Part shown: positions 37,920 through 47,784 of the stretch, piece after piece
Layout of the letters: the number at the start of each line of letters is the position of its first letter
Position numbering within the stretch: position 1 is the first letter of the stretch
DNA from: Chloroflexota bacterium
Lineage (GTDB): Bacteria > Chloroflexota > Chloroflexia > Chloroflexales > Roseiflexaceae
Direction of reading: 5' to 3'
DNA length: 47,784 bases
Assembly (NCBI GenBank): GCA_013388755.1
Contig: JACAEQ010000067.1
Location: 1-47,784 of the forward strand
Notes under the pieces: model-generated
Databases searched by the model: none
Told to the model about the DNA's origin: nothing
Seen by the model: the letters and a program-made list of their open reading frames with translations, nothing else
Program-made: the position numbers and the translations under genes

Positions 37920-38981
37920 CTACCCCGGTCGCACCGGTCGTCCTGCGCGGGCGGATTCGTACACCGCCAGCACCACTGCCAGCGCCCGGCGCGCATCTTC
38001 GCCGGTGACCAGAGGGGCGCGCCCTGCGCGGATCGCAGCGGCGAAATCTTCAATGATGCGAGTATGTCCCGACATATGAATATTCCGCGGGTCGGCGCCT
38101 GGCCCGGCGTCCTGCTGCCCGGAGCCGCTGGTTGCCACCTGCGGGCCGGCCTGAGCACCCTCAGCAGGCATGTGCGCCGTCTCCCAGCGCACGACGGCTT
38201 CACCTTCGATCTGCATGCCGCCCTGCGTACCGTAGACCTCGACGCGATGTGGAAACCCGGGCGCAGTCGCAGTGGTGGCGGCAATGGTGCCCAGCGCGCC
38301 GCTTGCAAAGCGCAGCGCGGCGGTGACCACATCCTCAACCTCGATGGTGTGCGCCAGAGTATCGGCGCGCGCCTGAACGTCGACCACCTCGTCGCTCATG
38401 AGCCAGAGGAGTAAATCAACCAGGTGCACTCCCTGGTTCATCAGTGCGCCGCCACCGTCGAGTGCCCAGGTACCGCGCCATGCTGCCGAGTCGTAGTAGC
38501 TCTGCGGGCGCAGGTAGGGAACGGTAATCGCGCCAAGCACCATGCGGCCGAGGGCGCCTGCGGCAATCGCGTTGTGCGCAGCGCGAAAGTTGGGATCGGT
38601 GCGGCGCTGCAGCGCAACGCCGAGTTGTACCCCGGCATCCCGGCACGCAGCGATCAGCGCGTCGGCGTCGTCCAGGGTCAGCGCCAGTGGTTTTTCGACC
38701 AGGACGTGTTTGCCGGCGCGTGCCGCCGCGATCCCCTGCTCCGCGTGCTGGCCACTTGGTGTGCAAATACTGACGGCATCAATATCGTCGCGCGCCAGCA
38801 GCGCCGCCAGATCCGGCACGACCTCGGCGTGGTACTGCGCGGCCAGGCCGGCGGCGAGTTCCGGGCGCGCGGCGCACACCGCCACCAGGCGCGCGTCGGG
38901 CGTCCGGTCGATCGCCCGGGCATGAAAGCCACCGGCAACGCCTGTACCGATGATGCCGAAGCGAATAGCGTGTTCGGTCAT
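37920..38981 (-). CDS. Gfo/Idh/MocA-family oxidoreductase
   Basis: A 353-residue NAD(P)-dependent sugar oxidoreductase. The dinucleotide motif is GIIGTGVAGGFHARAI (8-23). VSICTPSGQHAEQGIAAARAGKHVLVEKPLAL carries the EKP catalytic lysine (about residue 97). GGALMNQGVHLVDLLLWL has the His at the substrate site. It starts one base after the stop codon of the upstream Gfo/Idh gene, so the two are coupled. A Gly/Gln-rich insertion (SGSGQQDAGPGADPR, about 285-300) is unusual. Cytoplasmic; the sugar or inositol substrate is unknown. Confidence 0.88.
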   Translation of the reverse strand: MTEHAIRFGIIGTGVAGGFHARAIDRTPDARLVAVCAARPELAAGLAAQYHAEVVPDLAALLARDDIDAVSICTPSGQHAEQGIAAARAGKHVLVEKPLALTLDDADALIAACRDAGVQLGVALQRRTDPNFRAAHNAIAAGALGRMVLGAITVPYLRPQSYYDSAAWRGTWALDGGGALMNQGVHLVDLLLWLMSDEVVDVQARADTLAHTIEVEDVVTAALRFASGALGTIAATTATAPGFPHRVEVYGTQGGMQIEGEAVVRWETAHMPAEGAQAGPQVATSGSGQQDAGPGADPRNIHMSGHTRIIEDFAAAIRAGRAPLVTGEDARRALAVVLAVYESARAGRPVRPG

Positions 38982-38982
38982 G

Positions 38983-40098
38983 CTACACTGTTCGCTTTCC
39001 TGCCTTCAAATCCTCCAGCAGCCCATGATACGCCGCGCGATCCAGCGGCAGGGTCGCCGGCTGCCCGGTGACGCCGGAATAGATCACAGCATTCGCCAGT
39101 TCGAGCGACATCGTCGCCTCGCGCCCATCGCAGCGCGGGCGTCGTCCTTCGGCGATTGCCGCCACCAGGTCGCGGTACACTGCCAGGTGGCCGCCACCAT
39201 CGCCCGGTAGATGGACGGTCTCAACCTGATCGCCCGGGCGGCCCCACATTTCCTGCGCTGTGGCGCGGTAGTCGCTCAGCGACGGGGAGAATCGATGAAT
39301 CGTCAGGCGATCCTCGACCAGTTCCAGCGCGGCACGGTCGCCGACAATTTCCATGCGGCGATCAAGACCGGCTTCGACCGTGCTGAAATGCAGATAACCA
39401 GGTGCGCCATTGGGGTATTCCAGCATGGCCTGGGCCGAGTCTTCACATTCCATCTGATGACCGCGAACTTTGACCCAGCCCCAGACCTTCGCCGGCGGGC
39501 CGGCCAGGTGGCAGAGGAGATCGAGCGGGTGGGGGCCCTGGTTCATCAGTACGCCGCCGCCTTCGCCTTTCCAGGTGCCGCGCCAATCGGCGGAGTTGTA
39601 ATAGAACTGGGTGCGGAACCAGGGCTCGACACACAACACGCGCACAAGGTCGCCGAGTTCACCCGATTCAACCAGGGCGCGGGCGCGCTCGATTACCGGG
39701 CGAAACCGCTGCTGGAAATTGACCGCCAGGATACGACCGGCGCGATCCGCGGCGGCGACCATGGCATCGGCCTCGCCCACGCTGACCGCAATCGGTTTTT
39801 CGACCAGGACGTGCGCTCCTGCCTCCAGGCTGTCGATCGCCAGCGCGGCGTGGTGGGGATGTGGTGTGCAGATTACGGCAACATCGGGGCGCACCGCGTC
39901 GAGCATTGCGCGGTGATCGGTAAAGAACGGACAGCCGAACTCGGCGGCGCGGGCTGCACCACGCTCGGCGGCAATATCGGCCATGCCGGCAATTGAGGCG
40001 CCGGGGAGTTGCGCGAGCGCGTTCAGGTGCAGCGCCGCAATCCCGGCAGCGCTGCCGATGATGCCGAAACGCAACGTCGGGGTGTCGGCGGATTCCAT
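38983..40098 (-). CDS. Gfo/Idh/MocA-family oxidoreductase
   Basis: A 371-residue relative of the next gene. It has GIIGSAAGIAALHLNAL (dinucleotide site), VICTPHPHHAALAIDSLEAG followed by HVLVEKPIAV (catalytic Lys) and GGVLMNQGPHPLDLLCHL. It also has the YYNSADWRGTW motif shared with its neighbour, which reads YYDSAAWRGTW, so both probably act on related sugars. AAGGAGC lies nine bases before ATG 40098; the frame extends to 40164 without support. It is the first gene of the leftward operon and divergent from the class II aldolase. Confidence 0.88.
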   Translation of the reverse strand: MESADTPTLRFGIIGSAAGIAALHLNALAQLPGASIAGMADIAAERGAARAAEFGCPFFTDHRAMLDAVRPDVAVICTPHPHHAALAIDSLEAGAHVLVEKPIAVSVGEADAMVAAADRAGRILAVNFQQRFRPVIERARALVESGELGDLVRVLCVEPWFRTQFYYNSADWRGTWKGEGGGVLMNQGPHPLDLLCHLAGPPAKVWGWVKVRGHQMECEDSAQAMLEYPNGAPGYLHFSTVEAGLDRRMEIVGDRAALELVEDRLTIHRFSPSLSDYRATAQEMWGRPGDQVETVHLPGDGGGHLAVYRDLVAAIAEGRRPRCDGREATMSLELANAVIYSGVTGQPATLPLDRAAYHGLLEDLKAGKRTV

Positions 40099-40154
40099 CG
40101 CTGGTGCTCCTTGTGCTACATGGCTTCTGTCCTGGCTGCATATGGCGTCACCTA

Positions 40155-40209
40155 ACAATACCACATGTTACGTGCCTGGATAATCCACGTCTTGCTGGTG
40201 TGCTATACT
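40155..40209. promoter_or_regulatory. divergent promoter pair around a shared palindrome
   Basis: Rightward: extended -10 TGCTATACT (40201-40209). Leftward: extended -10 TGGTATTGT, its TATTGT at 40155-40160 on the minus strand. The perfect palindrome TGGAT-A-ATCCA (40177-40187) lies where the -35 box of both promoters would be, and neither has a good -35. One regulator could control both the aldolase side and the Gfo/Idh operon. Confidence 0.48.
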
Positions 40210-40225
40210 GAGGCATCATTGGGGT

Positions 40226-40363
40226 GTGGCAGAGCGTTCTACGGCTGAGCGCTTCCAGAAAGCGTACGACGTGGTACCAACCGGCGCGTTGACCCTCAGC
40301 GCAGGCGATCAGGCCCGGATGCTCGCCGCTGTAGAAAAGAGGGCATCCCATGGGCGCTCATGA
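40226..40363 (+). CDS. possible 45-residue small protein
   Basis: A GTG-started frame of 45 codons (begins AERSTAERFQKAYDVV, ends KRASHGRS) overlaps the aldolase start by 14 bases. It begins about ten bases after the predicted transcription start, so translation could be nearly leaderless. Composition is protein-like, with charged and Ala residues. No family recognised and no clear Shine-Dalgarno site. Confidence 0.4.
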   Translation: MAERSTAERFQKAYDVVPTGALTLSAGDQARMLAAVEKRASHGRS

Positions 40364-40997
40364 TGATCCGCGACCACTCATGGTCGAGATCGCCGGGTTG
40401 ATCTATGAACGATTCCTGACCAACAGCGCCGGGGGAAACATGAGTTGCCGGGTCGGCGAGCATATCTTCATCACACCGCGCTATCTGGGCAGCAAACATC
40501 GCTGGAAGTTGCGTCCTGAAATGGTGATCGTCTGTGATGGCAACGGCCAGGTGATTGAAGGCGACCCGGCCGTGGTGAGCCGCGAAAGCAAGATGCACTT
40601 CGCCTGCTATCGCGCCTTCCCCGACGTCCACGGCGTCATTCACGCGCACGCGCGCTATCTGAGCGTCTTCGCCGCAGCAGGGAAACCGGTACTGCCATTT
40701 ACCGACTATACGGAGAAATATGGCGTGACCGAGGTTGTACCCTATTTTCCCAGCCATTCCCAGGAGCTGGCCGATGCCGTTGTTGCGAAACTGATGCCAC
40801 GCCAGGCGGCGTTCCAGAAAAATGGCCTCGGCCTGGTGCTGGCATGGCACGGCGCGGTCGCCGTCGGGCGCGATCTGGCAGATGCCTATGATACGCTGGA
40901 GCGACTCGAATGGGCGGCGCATACGCAGCTCATGGCGCGGCTGCTGAACAACGATGAACCGCTGCCGTATTATAGGGGTCAGGGGTTAGATCAATGA
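40350..40997 (+). CDS. class II aldolase/adducin-family protein
   Basis: A 215-residue zinc aldolase-fold protein. NSAGGNMSCRV (phosphate-binding loop), SRESKMHFACYRAFPD, VIHAHARYLSVFA with two Zn-type His, and AWHGAVAVGRDLADAYDTLE with the third His are all in the order of L-fuculose-/L-rhamnulose-phosphate aldolases. It probably cleaves a ketose phosphate to dihydroxyacetone phosphate and an aldehyde. AGAGGG precedes the ATG. The rhamnosidase upstream in the window makes a deoxy-sugar substrate attractive, but no rhamnose isomerase or rhamnulokinase is seen here. The last codons run into a period-7 array. Confidence 0.83.
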   Translation: MGAHDDPRPLMVEIAGLIYERFLTNSAGGNMSCRVGEHIFITPRYLGSKHRWKLRPEMVIVCDGNGQVIEGDPAVVSRESKMHFACYRAFPDVHGVIHAHARYLSVFAAAGKPVLPFTDYTEKYGVTEVVPYFPSHSQELADAVVAKLMPRQAAFQKNGLGLVLAWHGAVAVGRDLADAYDTLERLEWAAHTQLMARLLNNDEPLPYYRGQGLDQ

Positions 40998-41042
40998 CTC
41001 AATGACTTCGTTGCGATAACCCTTAACCCTTAACCCTTAACC
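40977..41042. repeat. period-7 TTAACCC array with opposing GGGGTTA arm
   Basis: GGGGTCAGGGGTTAG (from about 40976) is followed by two TCAATGA words, then TAACCCT repeated in 7-base steps (41018-41042). It lies between the convergent aldolase and nadE genes and overlaps both 3' ends. The shared TCAATGA and CGTTGCGAT-like words link it to the element at 37010. Confidence 0.72.
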
Positions 41043-43084
41043 ACACGCAACTCCTCCAGCCATACCTCTGCCTCGGCGTCGCTCGGGGCGCGCCAGTCGC
41101 CACGTGGCGAGAGCGACCCGCCCGAACCGACCTTGGGACCATTCGGCAGGGCCGAGCGCTTGAACTGGCTCGTCTTGAAGAAGCGCCAGAGGAAGACCTC
41201 CAACCACCGCACGATTGCCGGCAGGTCATACTGGCGGTGCTCGTCACCCGGTAATCCTGCGGGCCACTCCCCACGTGATGCATCACCCCAGGCGTGGTAG
41301 CTGAGAAAGGCCACTTTACTTGGCCGGAAGCCGTAGCGCGTAATGTAGAACAGGTTGAAGTCCTGCAATTCATAGGGGCCGATGACCGACTGCGTGCTCT
41401 GGGCCGGGCGCGAACGATCGCCGCCGGCGCCAGGCGGCACCAGTTCGGGCGAGATTTCGGTGCCCAGGATTGAGTGCAGAATGGCGCTGGTAGCGTCGTC
41501 AAACTGGCCGGAGTCCGCCACCCAGCGAATCAGGTGCTGAATGAGTGTTTTCGGCACCGACGCATTGACGTTGTAATGTGACATCTGGTCACCGACACCA
41601 TAGGTTGCCCAGCCGAGCGCCAGTTCGCTCAGGTCGCCGGTGCCAAGAACCAGCGCCCCGTGCAAGTTTGCCAGGCGAAAGAGATGTGACGTGCGCTCGC
41701 CGGCCTGCACATTCTCGAAGGTCACATCATACACCGGTTCACCTGCTGCGAATGGGTGGCCGATGTCGCGCAGCATCTGCATACACGACGGGCGAATGTC
41801 GATCTCGCCGGCAGTGACGCCAAGCGCATGCATGAGGCCGCGCGCATTGCCGGCCGTCACATCGCTGGTGGCGAAACCGGGCATCGTATACGCCAGAATA
41901 TTTGTGCGTGGCAGGCCCAGACGATCCATGGTACGCGCGGCGACGATCAGTGCCTGCGTCGAATCAAGGCCGCCCGACACACCAATGACGATCTTTGTGA
42001 TGCCGGTACTGGTCAGCCGTTTCATCAAGCCGTGGACCTGGATGTTGTACGCTTCGTAGCAGCGTTCATCACGCTGCGCCGGGTCGCCAGGTACATACGG
42101 GAAGCGAGCGATGTCGCGTTGCAGCGCAACCTCGACTGCGGGCGATGTGAACGTGAATGCCACGCGGCGCATGGCCTGGAGCCGTTCGCGGTGATCGCCG
42201 GCTGCATCGGCGAAGCTCGTCGTACGCATCCGCTCCTGCACGATCCGTTCGAGATCAATGTCAGCAGTGATTAACTGCTCGTCCTGCGCAAAGCGGCATG
42301 CCTCGGCCAGTCGTTCGCCCAGTTCATAGATCAATGCATGCCCATCCCAGGCCAGGTCCGTGGTGGACTCGCCTGGACCGGCGGCGGAGTAGAGGTAGGC
42401 AGCGATGCATGTGCCGGACCGGGCGGCGCACAGGGTGCGCCGGTAATCGGCCTTGCCAATGGTAATGTTGCTTGCCGAGAGATTGGCGAGAACCGTCGCG
42501 CCTGCCAGCGCGGCAAAACTACTCGGCGGGATTGGCCCCCAGACATCTTCGCAGATTTCGATGTGTAGTGCGAAGCCCGGCACGTTCTCCGCAACGAACA
42601 GCAGATCGGCGCCGAATGGCACGACGGTTTCCAGGAGCCGGATCTCGCGACTGACGGCGGCACGGGCGGCGCTGAACTGGCGCTTTTCATAGAACTCGCG
42701 ATAATTCGGCAGATAGCTCTTCGGTACCACACCAAGGATCTGGCCGCGATACACAATGACGGCGCAATTGTAGAGCGCGCCCTCGACCCGGAGTGGCGCA
42801 CCAACCAGCAGTAACGGCATCAGGTCGCGGCTGGCGTCGCGCAGTTGTGCCAGGCCGGCCAGCACCGCTTCCAGGAGGGCATCCTGCTGAACCAGATCAT
42901 CACTGGTATAGGAAGAGAGGCCGAGTTCAGGAAAGAGGGCGATGGCCGCGTGGGAGGCGCTGGCACGTTCTGCCATCGCAATGGTGCGCGCGGTATTGTA
43001 GGCCGGGTCGGCGACGCGGAGCGATGGCACACAGACGGCGACACGGATGAAACCGTGCGAGTAGATGGAATTGAAGGGGCGCAT
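41030..43084 (-). CDS. nadE: glutamine-dependent NAD+ synthetase
   Basis: A 684-residue two-domain enzyme. The N-terminal nitrilase-type amidotransferase has the triad Glu53 (FPELGLSSY), Lys122 (VPKSYLPNY) and Cys178 (EICEDVW). The C-terminal synthetase has the pyrophosphatase loop SGGLDS (370-375) and [19 protein letters not shown]-type signature. It converts deamido-NAD+, glutamine and ATP to NAD+, the last step of NAD synthesis. I start it at ATG 43084 after GAAGGGAA; the frame opens at 43111. The final residues (VVKG) and stop codon lie inside the TTAACCC array. Confidence 0.94.
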
Positions 43085-43116
43085 GATGTTTCCCTTCCGC
43101 ATACCGGTCAATTTGT

Positions 43117-43125
43117 GTCATTATA
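43117..43125 (-). promoter_or_regulatory. nadE promoter, extended -10
   Basis: On the minus strand TGTTATAAT is a perfect extended -10 (TATAAT at 43120-43125; TG lies three bases upstream, so the motif spans to 43128). The -35 region is weak. Transcription would start about 30 nt before the nadE ATG. Confidence 0.6.
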
Positions 43126-43188
43126 ACACTTTTCGGGCTGGCATGGAAGCCCTGTGATAATTTGTGATACGCAGTGCTATTTTCGATA

Positions 43189-43197
43189 TGGTATAGT
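43189..43197 (+). promoter_or_regulatory. extended -10 promoter of the YeiH-type exporter genes
   Basis: TGGTATAGT fits TGnTATAAT in all but one defined position. No -35 consensus precedes it. It lies 36 bp before the small ORF. Confidence 0.55.
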
Positions 43198-43232
43198 CGC
43201 GCCTGCTGTGTTGCCGTGAAGGGGGTGCTCGT

Positions 43233-43361
43233 ATGGATCAGACAGATCCGCAGGTTCAGCCATGGTGGCGCCGGATCGGCGAGGACTGGTGGTCGGTGAT
43301 CGTTGGCGGTGGGTTGATTGCGCTGGTGATGCTGGGCGTCATCCGCGGGATTCCGTGGTAG
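43233..43361 (+). CDS. 42-residue membrane peptide, split N-terminal piece of YeiH-type exporter
   Basis: A small protein beginning MDQTDPQVQPWWRRIGEDWW and followed by one hydrophobic helix (about residues 21-40), ending RGIPW. AAGGGGG lies nine bases before its ATG. Its stop is 15 bases before the exporter ATG, with AAGGAG between. Longer exporters of this family carry an EDWW segment plus helix at their own N-terminus (family knowledge), which the downstream protein lacks. The two probably assemble as one transporter. Confidence 0.7.
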   Translation: MDQTDPQVQPWWRRIGEDWWSVIVGGGLIALVMLGVIRGIPW

Positions 43362-43376
43362 CGGAAGGAGCGCGGG

Positions 43377-44426
43377 ATGGCGACAGAAGTGATGCGTGCG
43401 CGTGTGCCGTGGCCAATGCGGTTGCTGGAGTTGCTCGGTTCGGCGGTGTTGCTGGGTGTGCTCGCCTGGCTGGTGAACATGATCGTCAAAGCCGGGCCGA
43501 AGGAACTGGAGTTTCCTATCTGGGCCGCCGGGCTCGGCCTGACCGTGAATGTCCTGGCGAGTGTGGTGCGGGCCAGGCGGTATCTTGGTGGCGCGTTTCG
43601 CACCGAGCTGTTTCTGAAAATCGGGCTGGTGCTGCTTGGCGCGAGCGTGGATTTTACCCGGATTCTGAGCGTTGGTGTGCGCGGTGTGGCGCAGGCGGCA
43701 ATCATGATCGCGGCGGTCTTCCTGTTTACCTGGTGGCTTGGTGGCCGGTTTCAGCTTGACAAGAAGTTGCGCGCCGTGCTGTCGGCGGCGGTCGCTGTGT
43801 GCGGCGTCTCGGCGGCGATCGCTGCGACCGGGGCGGTGCTGGCGAAGAAGGAACAACTGGCATACGTGACGGCCCTGGTGATTCTGGTATCGCTGCCGCT
43901 GATGGTGCTGATGCCGCTTGCGGCACGGGTGCTGGGAATGCCGCCGGCGTGGGCGGGCGCATGGTTCGGCAGTAACATTGATACCACTGCCGCAGTGGTT
44001 GGCGCGGGCACCATCTATGGGGAGCAGGCGGTCCAGATCGCGTCAATCGTGAAACTGTCGCAGAATGCGATGATGGGGGTCGTGGCGTTTGCGCTGGCGC
44101 TCTACTGGGTGACGCGCGAAGAAGGGCGTGCGGAGGCGCGCCCCGGCGCCGGCGTGATCTGGCAGCGGTTCCCCAAGTTTGTGCTCGGTTTCCTGCTGGC
44201 GTCGGCGGTGGTGAGCCTGGGGCTGCTGACCAGGCCACAGCTTGCCGACGTCAATGCGCTGCGCCACTGGGCGCTGACGCTGGCGTTTATCAGTATTGGC
44301 TGGGAGATCTCCCTCAGTGAGGTGCGCCAGGCGGGCTGGCGGCCCATCGCCGTGTATCTTGTGGCAACCCTGTTCAACACGACGCTTGCGCTGGGGATCG
44401 CCTGGATCTTCTTCGGGCAGGGATGA
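43377..44426 (+). CDS. YeiH-family putative sulfate exporter
   Basis: A 349-residue membrane protein of the UPF0324/YeiH family with about ten hydrophobic segments. LFLKIGLVLLGASVDF, AVAVCGVSAAIAATG, WFGSNIDTTAAVVGAGTIYG and SIVKLSQNAMMGVVAFAL are the conserved blocks. The family is annotated as a putative sulfate or sulfonate exporter; direct evidence for substrate is limited. AAGGAG precedes the ATG. It begins closer to the first conserved helix than longer relatives, the missing piece being the upstream small ORF. Confidence 0.85.
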   Translation: MATEVMRARVPWPMRLLELLGSAVLLGVLAWLVNMIVKAGPKELEFPIWAAGLGLTVNVLASVVRARRYLGGAFRTELFLKIGLVLLGASVDFTRILSVGVRGVAQAAIMIAAVFLFTWWLGGRFQLDKKLRAVLSAAVAVCGVSAAIAATGAVLAKKEQLAYVTALVILVSLPLMVLMPLAARVLGMPPAWAGAWFGSNIDTTAAVVGAGTIYGEQAVQIASIVKLSQNAMMGVVAFALALYWVTREEGRAEARPGAGVIWQRFPKFVLGFLLASAVVSLGLLTRPQLADVNALRHWALTLAFISIGWEISLSEVRQAGWRPIAVYLVATLFNTTLALGIAWIFFGQG

Positions 44427-44471
44427 TCATTTCCCTGTATCATGGCGAGCAGTTTTGAGGAGGTGTGATCA

Positions 44472-45554
44472 ATGAGTGAGCTCCCCGCAACCATGCCGGC
44501 GGTCGTGTGCCGCGGCCCGCGCGATTACCGACTCGAAGAGTGGGCCGTACCGCGGCCTGGCCCTGGCGAGGTCGTCATTCGCGTGTCGGCAGTCGGGATC
44601 TGCGCCAGCGATTTGAAGTGCTATCTTGGCGCGCCGCTGTTCTGGGGTGACGCTCACCGCGATGGCTACTGCCAGCCGCCGGTGATACCCGGCCACGAGT
44701 TTGTCGGCGAGGTTGCGGCGCTCGGCGAGGGTGCCGCCGAGCAGTACGGCCTGCAGGTCGGCGACATGGCCGTGTCGGAACAGATCGTGCCGTGCTGGGA
44801 ATGCCGCTATTGTAAGCGCGGCCAGTACTGGATGTGCGCCGTTCATGACATTTACGGCTTCCGCCAGCGCACATTCGGCGCAATGGCCGGGTACATGCTG
44901 TTTCCGAAGGGGGCGTTGAACTACCGGGTGCCGCGCGAGATCCCGCCGCATCACGCAGCGTTCATCGAACCGCTCGCCTGTTCGATCCACGCGGTGCAGC
45001 GCGGCAATATCGAGTTTGGCGACGTGGTGGCGATTGCCGGTGCCGGGCCGCTCGGCCTGGGCATGATCGCCGCCGCGCGAATGAAGAATCCTGGCCTCTT
45101 GATCGCCCTCGACATGGATGACAGCCGGCTGGAAACGGCCAGGGCATGCGGCGCCGATATGGGGCTCAATCCGCGCTACGAGGATGTTATTGCGAAAGTT
45201 CGCCAGTTGACCGGCGGGTATGGGTGTGATGTCTATATTGAGGCGACCGGCCATCCCTCGGCCGTCGAACAGGGGTTACACATGATCCGCAAGCTCGGCA
45301 CATTTGTCGAGTTCAGCGTCATGCGCGAGCCGGTGACGGTTGACTGGACGATTATCGGCGATACCAAGGAACTGACGATCCACGGTTCGCACCTTGGCCC
45401 CTACTGTTACCCGATTGCGATCGATATGCTGCGCAGGGGCTTGCTACCGATGGATCGCATTGTCACCCATCGTCTGCCGCTCTCCGATTTCCAGCTAGGG
45501 ATTGATCTGGTCGGCGCGGGGGATAAGTCGATTAAAGTGACGCTCATTCCGTAG
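44472..45554 (+). CDS. zinc-dependent dehydrogenase, erythritol/L-threitol dehydrogenase-like
   Basis: A 360-residue medium-chain dehydrogenase. [15 protein letters not shown] and PGHEFVGEV hold the catalytic zinc ligands; [15 protein letters not shown] is the structural zinc site; [15 protein letters not shown] binds [12 protein letters not shown] with FWGD shortly after is typical of the erythritol/threitol-dehydrogenase branch. It would oxidise a polyol to a ketose in the cytoplasm. GAGGAGGTG precedes the start. It is followed by a second dehydrogenase and a kinase in one direction with short gaps. Confidence 0.87.
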
Positions 45555-45598
45555 CATGGGAGGGTGTTGCACATTGTCTGTGGCGAGAGGTACAGCAG

Positions 45599-46606
45599 AT
45601 GCAGGCCGTTGTTTTTACCGCTCCCGAACATGTTGCTGTGTGCCAGGTGCCGGATCCTGCGCCTGCAGCGGATGAAGTGATCATCAGGGTTGCCGTGTGC
45701 GGCATCTGCGGCACGGATCTGCATATCTTCCGTAATGAGTATGGTTCGACGTTTCCGCTGACTCCCGGCCATGAGTTTGCCGGCGAGGTGGTTGCCGTGG
45801 GTGCGGCGGTATCCGAGCCATCGATCGGTACACGCGTGGCCGTCGATCCGAACCTGTCGTGCGGCGCGTGCGAGAACTGCCGGCGGATGCAGTTTCATCA
45901 TTGTGTGCGCTGGCAGGGCGTTGGTGTGACGCGGCCTGGCGGTTTTGCAGAATATGTTGCGGTGCCGGCCCGCGCCTGTTATCCTCTACCTGACGGTCTC
46001 AGCGATGCACAGGCGGCCTTTATCGAGCCACTGTCGTGCGTGATCCACGCCCTGCGGCGGGTACGCCTCCCGCCAGGCGAGGATGTGTTGCTGCTCGGCG
46101 GCGGGCCGATCGGCCTGCTGCTGGCACAGGGCCTGGCGCGTGCTGGCGCGTCGCGGGTGGTCATTGTGGAACGGCAGCCGGAACGTCTGGCGCTGGCCCG
46201 GTCATTTCACCTGGGTGACGTCGTTGCGGCAGGCCCTGATCAGGATGGCATCCTCCATACCCTGGCGCCGCGTGGCTTTGGCCTGGTGGTTGATGCCACG
46301 GGCCAGCCGGCGGTCATCGAGCGGGCGCCGGGCCATGTGCGCCCGGGTGGGTCGTTCATGCAGTTTGGTGTGGCACCGATGGGTGCCATGGTTCGCTGGG
46401 AACCGTACGATATCTTCCGCCGTGAGCTGACGATCCTTGGAACGTTTGCGCTGTGTTATACCTTCGGCCCGGCGATTGACTGGCTGGCGCGTGGCGTGGT
46501 TGAGACGGCGCCGCTCATCAGTGATACGCTGCCGCTGGCCGGCTTCGCCGACGCCTTCGCCCGCTTTGGCCGCGGCGAGACGCTCAAGGTGCACGTGCGG
46601 CCATGA
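45599..46606 (+). CDS. zinc-dependent alcohol/polyol dehydrogenase
   Basis: A 335-residue medium-chain dehydrogenase. [11 protein letters not shown] and PGHEFAGEV carry catalytic zinc ligands; [15 protein letters not shown] is the structural zinc site; [18 protein letters not shown] binds the nucleotide; [11 protein letters not shown] is shared with the preceding gene. Sorbitol-, threonine- and galactitol-phosphate-dehydrogenase-like activities are all possible. GAGAGG lies before the ATG. Its TGA overlaps the kinase start (ATGA), so the two are translationally coupled. Confidence 0.86.
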
Positions 46607-47556
46607 TCGTGACGGTTACACCTAATCCGACGCTTGACCGCGTGGTCTTTGTGCGTGGTTTCCGTCTCGGAGCGATCGTGCGCGGTGAACGCGAAACGCT
46701 GACGCCAAGCGGGAAGGGTGTGGATGCGTCACTGGTGTTGCACGCGCTGGGCCTGCCAACCCTGGCGACCGGGTTGCAGGCGGGGAGGCAGGGTCGCCTG
46801 GCAGTGGAATTACTTACTGAACTGGGCGTACCGCATGAGTTTGTGTGGGCCGATGGGGAAACGCGCCATGCCCTGGTGCTGGTTGACCTGGAGGCCGGCG
46901 CACAATCCACCATCAGTGTAGCGACCCTGCGCGCCACGCAATGGCATCTGGCGGAACTTGCCGCGATGATTGAACGCTACCTGCCGCAGGCGCGGTTCGT
47001 GGTGCTGGCCGGCAGTCTACCGAATGGCTGGCCAGTGGATGCCTATCGCCGATTGATTGGTATCTGCCGGGATTCCGGCGTTCCGACGCTGCTCGACACA
47101 TCCGGTGCCGCACTGGCTGCGACGCTTGCCGCTGATGGCGGTAGCCTGCCTGATATTGTGAAGGTCAATGCTGCCGAACTGGAAAGCCTGTTTCCCGTTG
47201 ACAGCCAGCCACGTTTGCCCGGGGAACGCGCTGCTGATCTGCGCCTGCGTTCCGGGTGCAATGCCGTGGTGGTGACGCTTGGTGCAGCGGGGGCCATTGC
47301 CGTCACTGCAGAAGGCGCATGGCGCGCCATACCGCCGCAGGTTGATGTCGTCAATGACGCCGGGGCGGGTGATGCGCTGGCAGGATGCCTGGCCTGGGCG
47401 CGGAGCGTCGGGCAGGACTGGCCGGCTGCGCTGCGCCTGGGTGTCGCGGCGGCGGTGGCGGTGGTCACAACGCCTGGTACGGCTGCATGTGACCGGGCCT
47501 CGGTGGATCGGTTGATGCCGCTGGTCAGGGTCGAACCTGGAGCTGATAGCCGATAG
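46603..47556 (+). CDS. PfkB-family sugar kinase (1-phosphofructokinase / tagatose-6-phosphate kinase type)
   Basis: A 317-residue kinase of the FruK/LacC branch. It starts [15 protein letters not shown], has [11 protein letters not shown], and ends with the ATP/catalytic signature [11 protein letters not shown] (Asp base). The usual N-terminal GGKGxN sugar-binding signature reads SGKGVDAS, with Asp replacing the conserved Asn, so substrate preference may differ. It overlaps the dehydrogenase upstream by ATGA. Together they may oxidise a polyol and phosphorylate the ketose. The last residues (ADSR) and stop codon are inside a period-7 array. Confidence 0.87.
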
Positions 47557-47596
47557 CCGATAGCTGATAGCCAATAGCCGATAGCCGATAGCGCAC
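47541..47596. repeat. period-7 array (AGCCGAT units)
   Basis: Eight consecutive units read AGCTGAT, AGCCGAT, AGCCGAT, AGCTGAT, AGCCAAT, AGCCGAT, AGCCGAT, AGCGCAC. The second and third units provide the end and stop codon of the kinase gene. Confidence 0.88.
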
Positions 47597-47597
47597 A

Positions 47598-47632
47598 GCC
47601 TATCCGAAAAACGATACGCCTCGCAATGACAG
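47598..47632. repeat. internally deleted fragment of the TIR-bearing dispersed repeat (copy 9)
   Basis: GCCTATCCGAAAAACGATAC is joined directly to GCCTCGCAATGACAG, the inner end of the right half. The centre and the right terminal inverted repeat are gone. Confidence 0.75.
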
Positions 47633-47660
47633 AAGATGTCTGGTTGTCAGTACGAGCGCA

Positions 47661-47784
47661 GCGATGCACGCACCCATCTTCCGGGTCAGTGCGCGCGATA
47701 GCGACGCACGCACCCATCTTCCGGGTCAGTGCGCGCGATAGCGACGCACGCACCCATCTTCCGGGTCAGTGCGCGCGATAGCGA
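47661..47784. repeat. 40-bp tandem repeat continuing past the window
   Basis: Three full units (47661-47700, 47701-47740, 47741-47780) plus the start of a fourth. The unit includes CGCACGCACCCATCTTCCGG then GTCAGTGCGCGCGATAGCGA. The last two are identical; the first differs by one base (GCGATG for GCGACG). Each unit can fold: GCACGCACCC pairs with GGGTCAGTGC at eight of ten positions. There are no spacers, so it is not CRISPR. Confidence 0.9.

Follow-up and report, generated by a model that had tools for sequence, protein, structure and literature searches.

On the forward strand of the window (the whole stretch of DNA that was analysed, 47,784 nucleotides from a Chloroflexota bacterium of the Roseiflexaceae), a small open reading frame (ORF) precedes a gene encoding a YeiH-type transporter (Table 1). 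The small ORF starts with ATG, encodes the 42-residue product MDQTDPQVQPWWRRIGEDWWSVIVGGGLIALVMLGVIRGIPW and ends with TAG. Its Shine-Dalgarno (SD) sequence, AAGGGGGTG, has one mismatch relative to AAGGAGGTG, as read by eye and by automatic SD scoring. The gap to the transporter gene is 15 nt and the two ORFs share a reading frame, the TAG and five codons being all that separates them. An earlier note on this DNA had described a 42-residue ORF with an EDWW motif, one membrane helix, a spacing of 15 bp and its own ribosome-binding site, and all of these hold when coordinates, SD sequence and hydropathy are examined. Profile searches placed the small protein in no Pfam or NCBIfam family. A promoter and terminator pattern scan of the region before the small ORF gave nothing useful, and Rfam had no matches within 38000-47784. 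Elsewhere the window carries tandem repeats at 41017-41042 (TAACCCT, 3.7 copies), 47541-47592 (AGCCGAT, 7.4 copies) and 47646-47784 (a 40-bp unit, 3.5 copies), the last of which reaches the end of the contig, and the contig perhaps ends there because of the repeat.

Table 1. Features of the small gene and the transporter gene, with positions in the window.
Feature	Position	Strand	Basis or remark
SD sequence of small ORF, AAGGGGGTG	43219..43227	+	5 nt to small ATG
Small one-helix membrane protein gene, 42 aa, EDWW motif, C-terminus IPW	43233..43361	+	Stop TAG
Predicted helix, small protein residues 11-33	43263..43331	+	pLDDT ~96-89, AlphaFold2 model of read-through chain
SD sequence of transporter gene, AAGGAG	43365..43370	+	6 nt to transporter ATG
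YeiH-type transporter, PF03601, CPA/AT clan, 349 aa	43377..44426	+	PF03601 169 bits, fold Z ~16
Predicted first membrane helix of transporter, counterpart of fused helix 3	43413..43493	+	Model and profile comparison
Predicted first broken-helix hairpin of core, ICGVSA-type motif	43761..43838	+	Model helices 177-188/192-202
Predicted second broken-helix hairpin of core, GAWFG.NIDTT motif	43944..44018	+	Model helices 238-248/252-262

The transporter, the sole PF03601 protein of its genome, belongs to that family (Cons_hypoth698, CPA/AT clan) with 169.4 bits against a curated cut-off of 24.5. For TIGR00698, the YeiH subfamily, it scores 75.1 bits against a curated cut-off of 232.6, which by sequence score puts it outside the YeiH subfamily proper. 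Enterobacteriaceae YeiH, a short PF03601 member belonging to TIGR00698, thus shares the Pfam family and the CPA/AT clan fold with the window transporter but differs in that short members have no detectable EDWW helix and in that the window protein falls far below the TIGR00698 cut-off. PF03601 is placed in the same clan as NapA in PMC8562792, and the YeiH model presented in PMC4602095 has two pairs of broken helices. A search of solved structures by sequence gave no match to the window transporter up to E 10.

A structure was predicted with AlphaFold2 for the read-through chain, in which the TAG was read as Q, using 66 sequences. The model has a mean pLDDT of 87.7 and a pTM of 0.86; helix 11-33 is confident, and the linker at residues 44-60 has a pLDDT below 50. 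The part of the model from residue ~61 onward matches NapA (Z 16.3, 261 residues, 3.6 A), and KefC and NhaP also match, with the small-protein helix lying outside the matched region in all three. The oxaloacetate decarboxylase beta-gamma complex (6iww) is among the fold matches as well, with a Z of 13.7, and a Foldseek search with the read-through model returned no matches at E <= 0.001. The model displays the NapA-like two-domain fold with two broken-helix pairs (177-202 and 238-262), and its helices fit nine crossings plus two hairpins if 264-296 is one helix.

Conservation of the pair was followed in a locus set (L002-L111) obtained by scanning the genome's own contigs and 200 related genomes. 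The close clade consists of 45 distinct loci with at least 45.6% identity to the transporter (tblastn), the duplicates L082-L084 having been removed. A separate small ORF lies upstream of the transporter gene at 43 of the 45 loci, with gaps from -7 to 136 nt. The two ORFs are in frame in 21 of these pairs and out of frame in the other 22, so that all three frame relations occur, and the small ORF stops with TAG, TAA or TGA. Over 20 pairs that are not independent of one another, pN/pS pools to 0.26 for the small ORF and to 0.16 for the transporter; the three pairs from the window's own group give 0.36-0.46 and 0.26-0.32, respectively. Judged from these comparisons, the small ORF is a real, conserved coding gene under purifying selection. 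That E, D and W are invariant among the 43 small proteins stems in part from the extraction pattern, which demanded EDW. At 30 further split loci found with a profile, the E varies (SLDWW, SPDWW, TKDWW and STDWF, among others) and the D-W pair is kept everywhere except at L119 (DGW). The clade and the profile-found loci together give 73 distinct split loci. At the split loci L124 (genome G268) and L104/L128 (G026), the transporter is broken into two or three frames and the small ORF is intact; the broken transporters may represent either decay or sequencing error.

The small gene is missing, with the transporter kept, at the remaining two clade loci, L021 and L025. These are sister branches on the transporter tree described below, and the loss is therefore counted as one event. 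No convincing relocated copy of the small gene was found in the two genomes: searching with A2 yielded E 0.26 in one genome, and the best matches to the small-protein alignment, A1, had E 0.03. In one of the two genomes (L166) the best A1 match was rejected as a relocated small gene since it lies among proteins which we take to be components of respiratory complex I. The two loci are treated as a loss, and may alternatively have a strongly diverged copy. Absence of the small gene at L021 and L025 means that it is not always essential. The earlier note had named conservation of the split in relatives as a check and frequent loss of the small ORF as grounds for abandoning its proposal; the split is indeed conserved, out-of-frame pairs included, and loss is infrequent.

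The small proteins of the clade come in two lengths, 28 having 30-57 residues and 15 having 142-155 (L015, L017-L020, L024, L026-L029, L034, L036, L037, L042 and L065). After the helix, the long proteins carry an extra beta-rich domain of about 90 residues with two invariant cysteines and a conserved WP.F end, for which no Pfam or NCBIfam family was found. A model of this domain from L019 has one helix and eight strands (pLDDT 74.9) and no clear solved relative, with no Foldseek match at E <= 0.001 and a best Z of 4.2. The lack of a fold match shows neither that the fold is new nor that a relative is missing.

The A1 alignment was also run at E <= 0.001 on four phylum samples totalling 1091 genomes: 400 of Chloroflexota, 196 from the phylum of a Methanoperedens record, 246 from the phylum of a Microbacteriaceae record and 249 from the phylum of a Clostridia record. 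Matches were obtained in 66 of the 1091 genomes. They make up 70 match rows, which include six A1 source sequences and a seventh (G159) identical to one of them. All 70 lie beside or inside PF03601 genes, 35 as a split gene adjoining the transporter gene and 35 fused at the N-terminus. Together with the presence of the small ORF at 43 of 45 clade loci, this recurrence greatly exceeds what chance would produce. The split rows comprise 16 from Chloroflexota, 1 archaeal, 5 from the Microbacteriaceae phylum and 13 from the Clostridia phylum, and the fused rows 2, 5, 2 and 26 from Chloroflexota and the Methanoperedens, Microbacteriaceae and Clostridia phyla, respectively; two of the fused rows, L212 and L214, were below threshold in the six-frame scan and were assigned because the profile match shares the open frame. 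Ubiquity of the family does not account for the coupling, as only 61 of the 400 Chloroflexota genomes contain PF03601. The gene order is reversed in G237 and G230, two Chloroflexota genomes where the small gene follows the transporter gene on the same strand. Some carriers are metagenome bins, and single taxon names (e.g., L009, L033, L041 and L066) may be wrong. In these genome sequences the small gene keeps its place beside the PF03601 transporter, whether the record is from Chloroflexota, Bacillota, Actinomycetota or archaea, and it does so despite changes in frame, spacing and gene order.

The relationship of the small protein to the fused N-termini was examined by comparing profiles (HMM-HMM). 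The small-protein profile matched helix 1 of the fused proteins with Prob 97.9 and E 5.8e-13, an E-value that is optimistic because the test used EDW-based trimming and fused proteins (30 of 34) that had been selected for having both four hydropathy peaks and an ED motif. The informative part is the contrast with fused helices 2, 3 and 4, for which the same profile gave Prob 1.1, 0.4 and 2.6. When a profile of the separate small ORFs only was run against 15,727 six-frame pieces from 111 loci, the matches at iE < 0.2 were small ORFs beside transporters and fused N-termini, and nothing else. The statement in the earlier note that longer family members carry a comparable segment at the N-terminus is thus borne out, with the similarity confined to helix 1 and absent from the next three.

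Hydropathy profiles reveal a further difference between the two forms. Before the core, the fused proteins have four peaks in 30 of 34 cases and three in the other four, and the split transporters have two in 43 of 45, with one peak in one case and three in another. The small proteins have a single peak in 43 of 43. The first helix of the split transporters resembles fused helix 3 best (Prob 52) and fused helix 2 little (Prob 4), indicating that the helix missing from the split systems is helix 2. Fused members thus have one more helix, which separates the EDWW helix from the transporter and which split members lack, so that the split is not a mere cut. In the fused proteins the helix 2-3 loop is short and positive (1.8 K/R and 0.5 D/E in 6.4 residues), and the helix 1-2 loop is long and charge-balanced. 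Compared with the fused PF03601 proteins bearing an N-terminal EDWL/EDWW helix, the window pair therefore has a homologous transporter and a homologous N-terminal helix, but these reside on two chains instead of on one chain with a connecting helix. Two fused alphaproteobacterial proteins (L047 and L048) have helices 1 and 2 set apart by an insertion of ~80 residues. Its position matches that of the extra domain in the long small proteins, but its sequence differs.

A quick tree of 186 transporters contains 71 split forms, 69 fused forms and 46 without a detectable helix. The latter constitute a short PF03601 branch in which no EDWW helix was detected, either fused or separate. A broadened profile gave a weak EDWW-like match roughly 1 kb upstream of three short-type transporters (L091, L094 and L095), within a long open frame. 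Explaining the split, fused and helix-less states needs four changes on the tree; when only presence or absence of the helix is scored, whatever its form, two suffice. Split forms make up two separated groups, one large and including the window and the other of 13 rows. The fused groups are joined at a support of 75-84 only, where long branches meet, and the tree is compatible with either direction of change, from split to fused or the reverse.

The absence of helix 2 has consequences for topology. A fused protein would run from helix 1 through a loop to helix 2 and then, via the short positive loop, to helix 3, which would correspond to the first helix of the split transporter. With helix 2 between them, helices 1 and 3 cross the membrane in the same direction. 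Were these two helices joined directly, in the absence of helix 2, helix 1 would end on one face of the membrane and helix 3 would begin on the other, so that the topology of the fused proteins can be kept only if the two parts are separate chains. This argument against direct joining of helices 1 and 3 holds for either orientation in the membrane. As to which orientation applies, nine helices, two broken-helix pairs on the same side and a periplasmic C-terminus are predicted for YeiH in PMC12880088 and PMC4602095. Nine helices and a periplasmic C-terminus place the N-terminus of YeiH inside, and the loop charges of the transporter fit an inside N-terminus. In NapA and KefC the N-terminus is outside, and by analogy with these best fold matches this would count against the inside reading. 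The small protein would insert on its own, probably with its N-terminus inside and its C-terminus outside, and pack against the transporter, where its helix would serve a structural or regulatory role. The beta-domain that follows the helix in the long variants would then probably be extracytoplasmic.

Judging from these sequence relationships, the 42-residue protein is quite probably a dedicated one-helix subunit of the transporter, acting in trans and supplying the N-terminal helix of the fused members. The suggestion in the earlier note that the first helix can function in trans is supported to this extent, the out-of-frame pairs and the reversed gene order in G237 and G230 pointing in that direction. 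The subunit reading is weakened by L021 and L025 and by the short branch that has no small gene. It might be supposed that the TAG is read through to give one fused protein, or that the locus is a fused gene with a recent nonsense mutation or base error, as the ORFs of the window are in frame with a single stop between them and 21 of the 43 clade pairs are in frame too. Yet 22 pairs are out of frame, the stops vary, the transporter has its own SD sequence and start, the small gene is downstream in two genomes, and the product would have a poorly modelled linker and lack the connecting helix of true fused proteins. Read-through of the TAG was rejected on account of the varying frames and reversed order, and an explanation of this general kind is exceedingly improbable. 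Alternatively, translation of the small ORF could tune expression of the transporter in cis, the peptide having no role of its own. The short distance at most loci makes translational coupling plausible, but the amino acid sequence is conserved (pN/pS 0.26), the peptide has a homologue in a fused helix, the gene order is reversed in two genomes and 15 of 43 small proteins have the extra 90-residue domain, all of which render a purely cis-acting upstream ORF very unlikely.

The small protein could also be a hydrophobic toxin or holin-like peptide unrelated to transport, since 4 of 27 short small proteins have weak matches to Pfam Hol_Tox (best E 1.9e-4) and 3 of 27 match NCBIfam PepG1 (best 0.0034). 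The window protein, however, matches neither PF16935 Hol_Tox at E <= 1 nor PepG1, for which reason this assignment was rejected. With 70 of 70 genome matches tied to PF03601 genes and the homology to a transporter helix, it is scarcely credible. Many small membrane proteins of bacteria are regulators, and retention of the transporter at L021 and L025 after loss of the small gene would suit a separate, conserved factor for assembly or stability, or a regulator, that departs once assembly is complete and is not a permanent subunit. Such a transient role is unlikely, though, as in 69 rows of the tree this helix is joined covalently to the transporter, which favours a permanent position.

The gene neighbourhood bears on the likely substrate. 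Among the 39 clade loci with at least 1.3 kb of downstream sequence, the pair is directly upstream of dsrA and dsrB on the same strand at eight (L005, L007, L010, L011, L012, L013, L016 and L023), most of which belong to organisms other than that of the window, and the other 31 gave no dsr match. dsrC is next at seven of the eight, the sequence of L010 ending within dsrB, and one of the eight is labelled Candidatus Desulfolinea. dsrA also adjoins the split locus L187 and the fused locus L087. Neighbours of the window pair itself are NAD synthetase, two zinc alcohol dehydrogenases and a PfkB kinase, with no sulfur gene beside it. In Salmonella, YeiH is reported in PMC12880088 to be required for sulfite resistance. 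The transporter is probably an elevator-type exporter. By analogy with this distant homologue and from the dsrAB neighbourhood, sulfite or another sulfur oxyanion would be its likeliest substrate. At the eight Chloroflexota loci where it heads a dsrAB(C) cluster, the split pair is a candidate module for sulfite transport in dissimilatory sulfite reduction.

Comparable arrangements occur in other transporters. The Q subunit of TRAP transporters has several helices, as opposed to the single helix of the small protein. A likeness is seen in the fusion within this unrelated family, where according to PMC10942642 fused SiaQM carries an extra membrane-crossing fusion helix that the non-fused, two-gene system lacks. 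The oxaloacetate decarboxylase beta subunit, which is in the same fold group as the transporter, binds a separate small membrane gamma subunit (PMC7274780). The gamma subunit differs from the EDWW protein in that its cytoplasmic tail serves to recruit the alpha subunit.

No description of the split system or the small protein was found in open-access full texts, a scope outside which most subscription journals fall, and within the profile libraries and open-access literature searched the small protein represents an undescribed family. It is conceivable, as a tentative extension, that a whole branch of YeiH/PF03601, spanning four or more phyla with archaea among them, consists of two-subunit transporters with a near-obligatory one-helix partner, that the one-chain members are fusions that gained a connecting helix (or the split ones lost it), and that the extracytoplasmic beta-domain of one lineage, with its two invariant cysteines, could sense or capture the extracellular sulfur substrate. 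YeiH-type proteins, which are widespread, have been poorly characterised, and a role in sulfite resistance has been reported for them only recently. The annotated one-gene 'sulfate exporters' of Chloroflexota and many Bacillota are probably incomplete systems, and cloning the annotated gene alone may yield an inactive or unregulated protein. Split pairs, pairs in reversed order, pairs with an extra domain, fusions with a connecting helix and loci that have lost the small gene form a natural series in which one may learn how transporters split or fuse with their topology intact, and what role the extra helix has.
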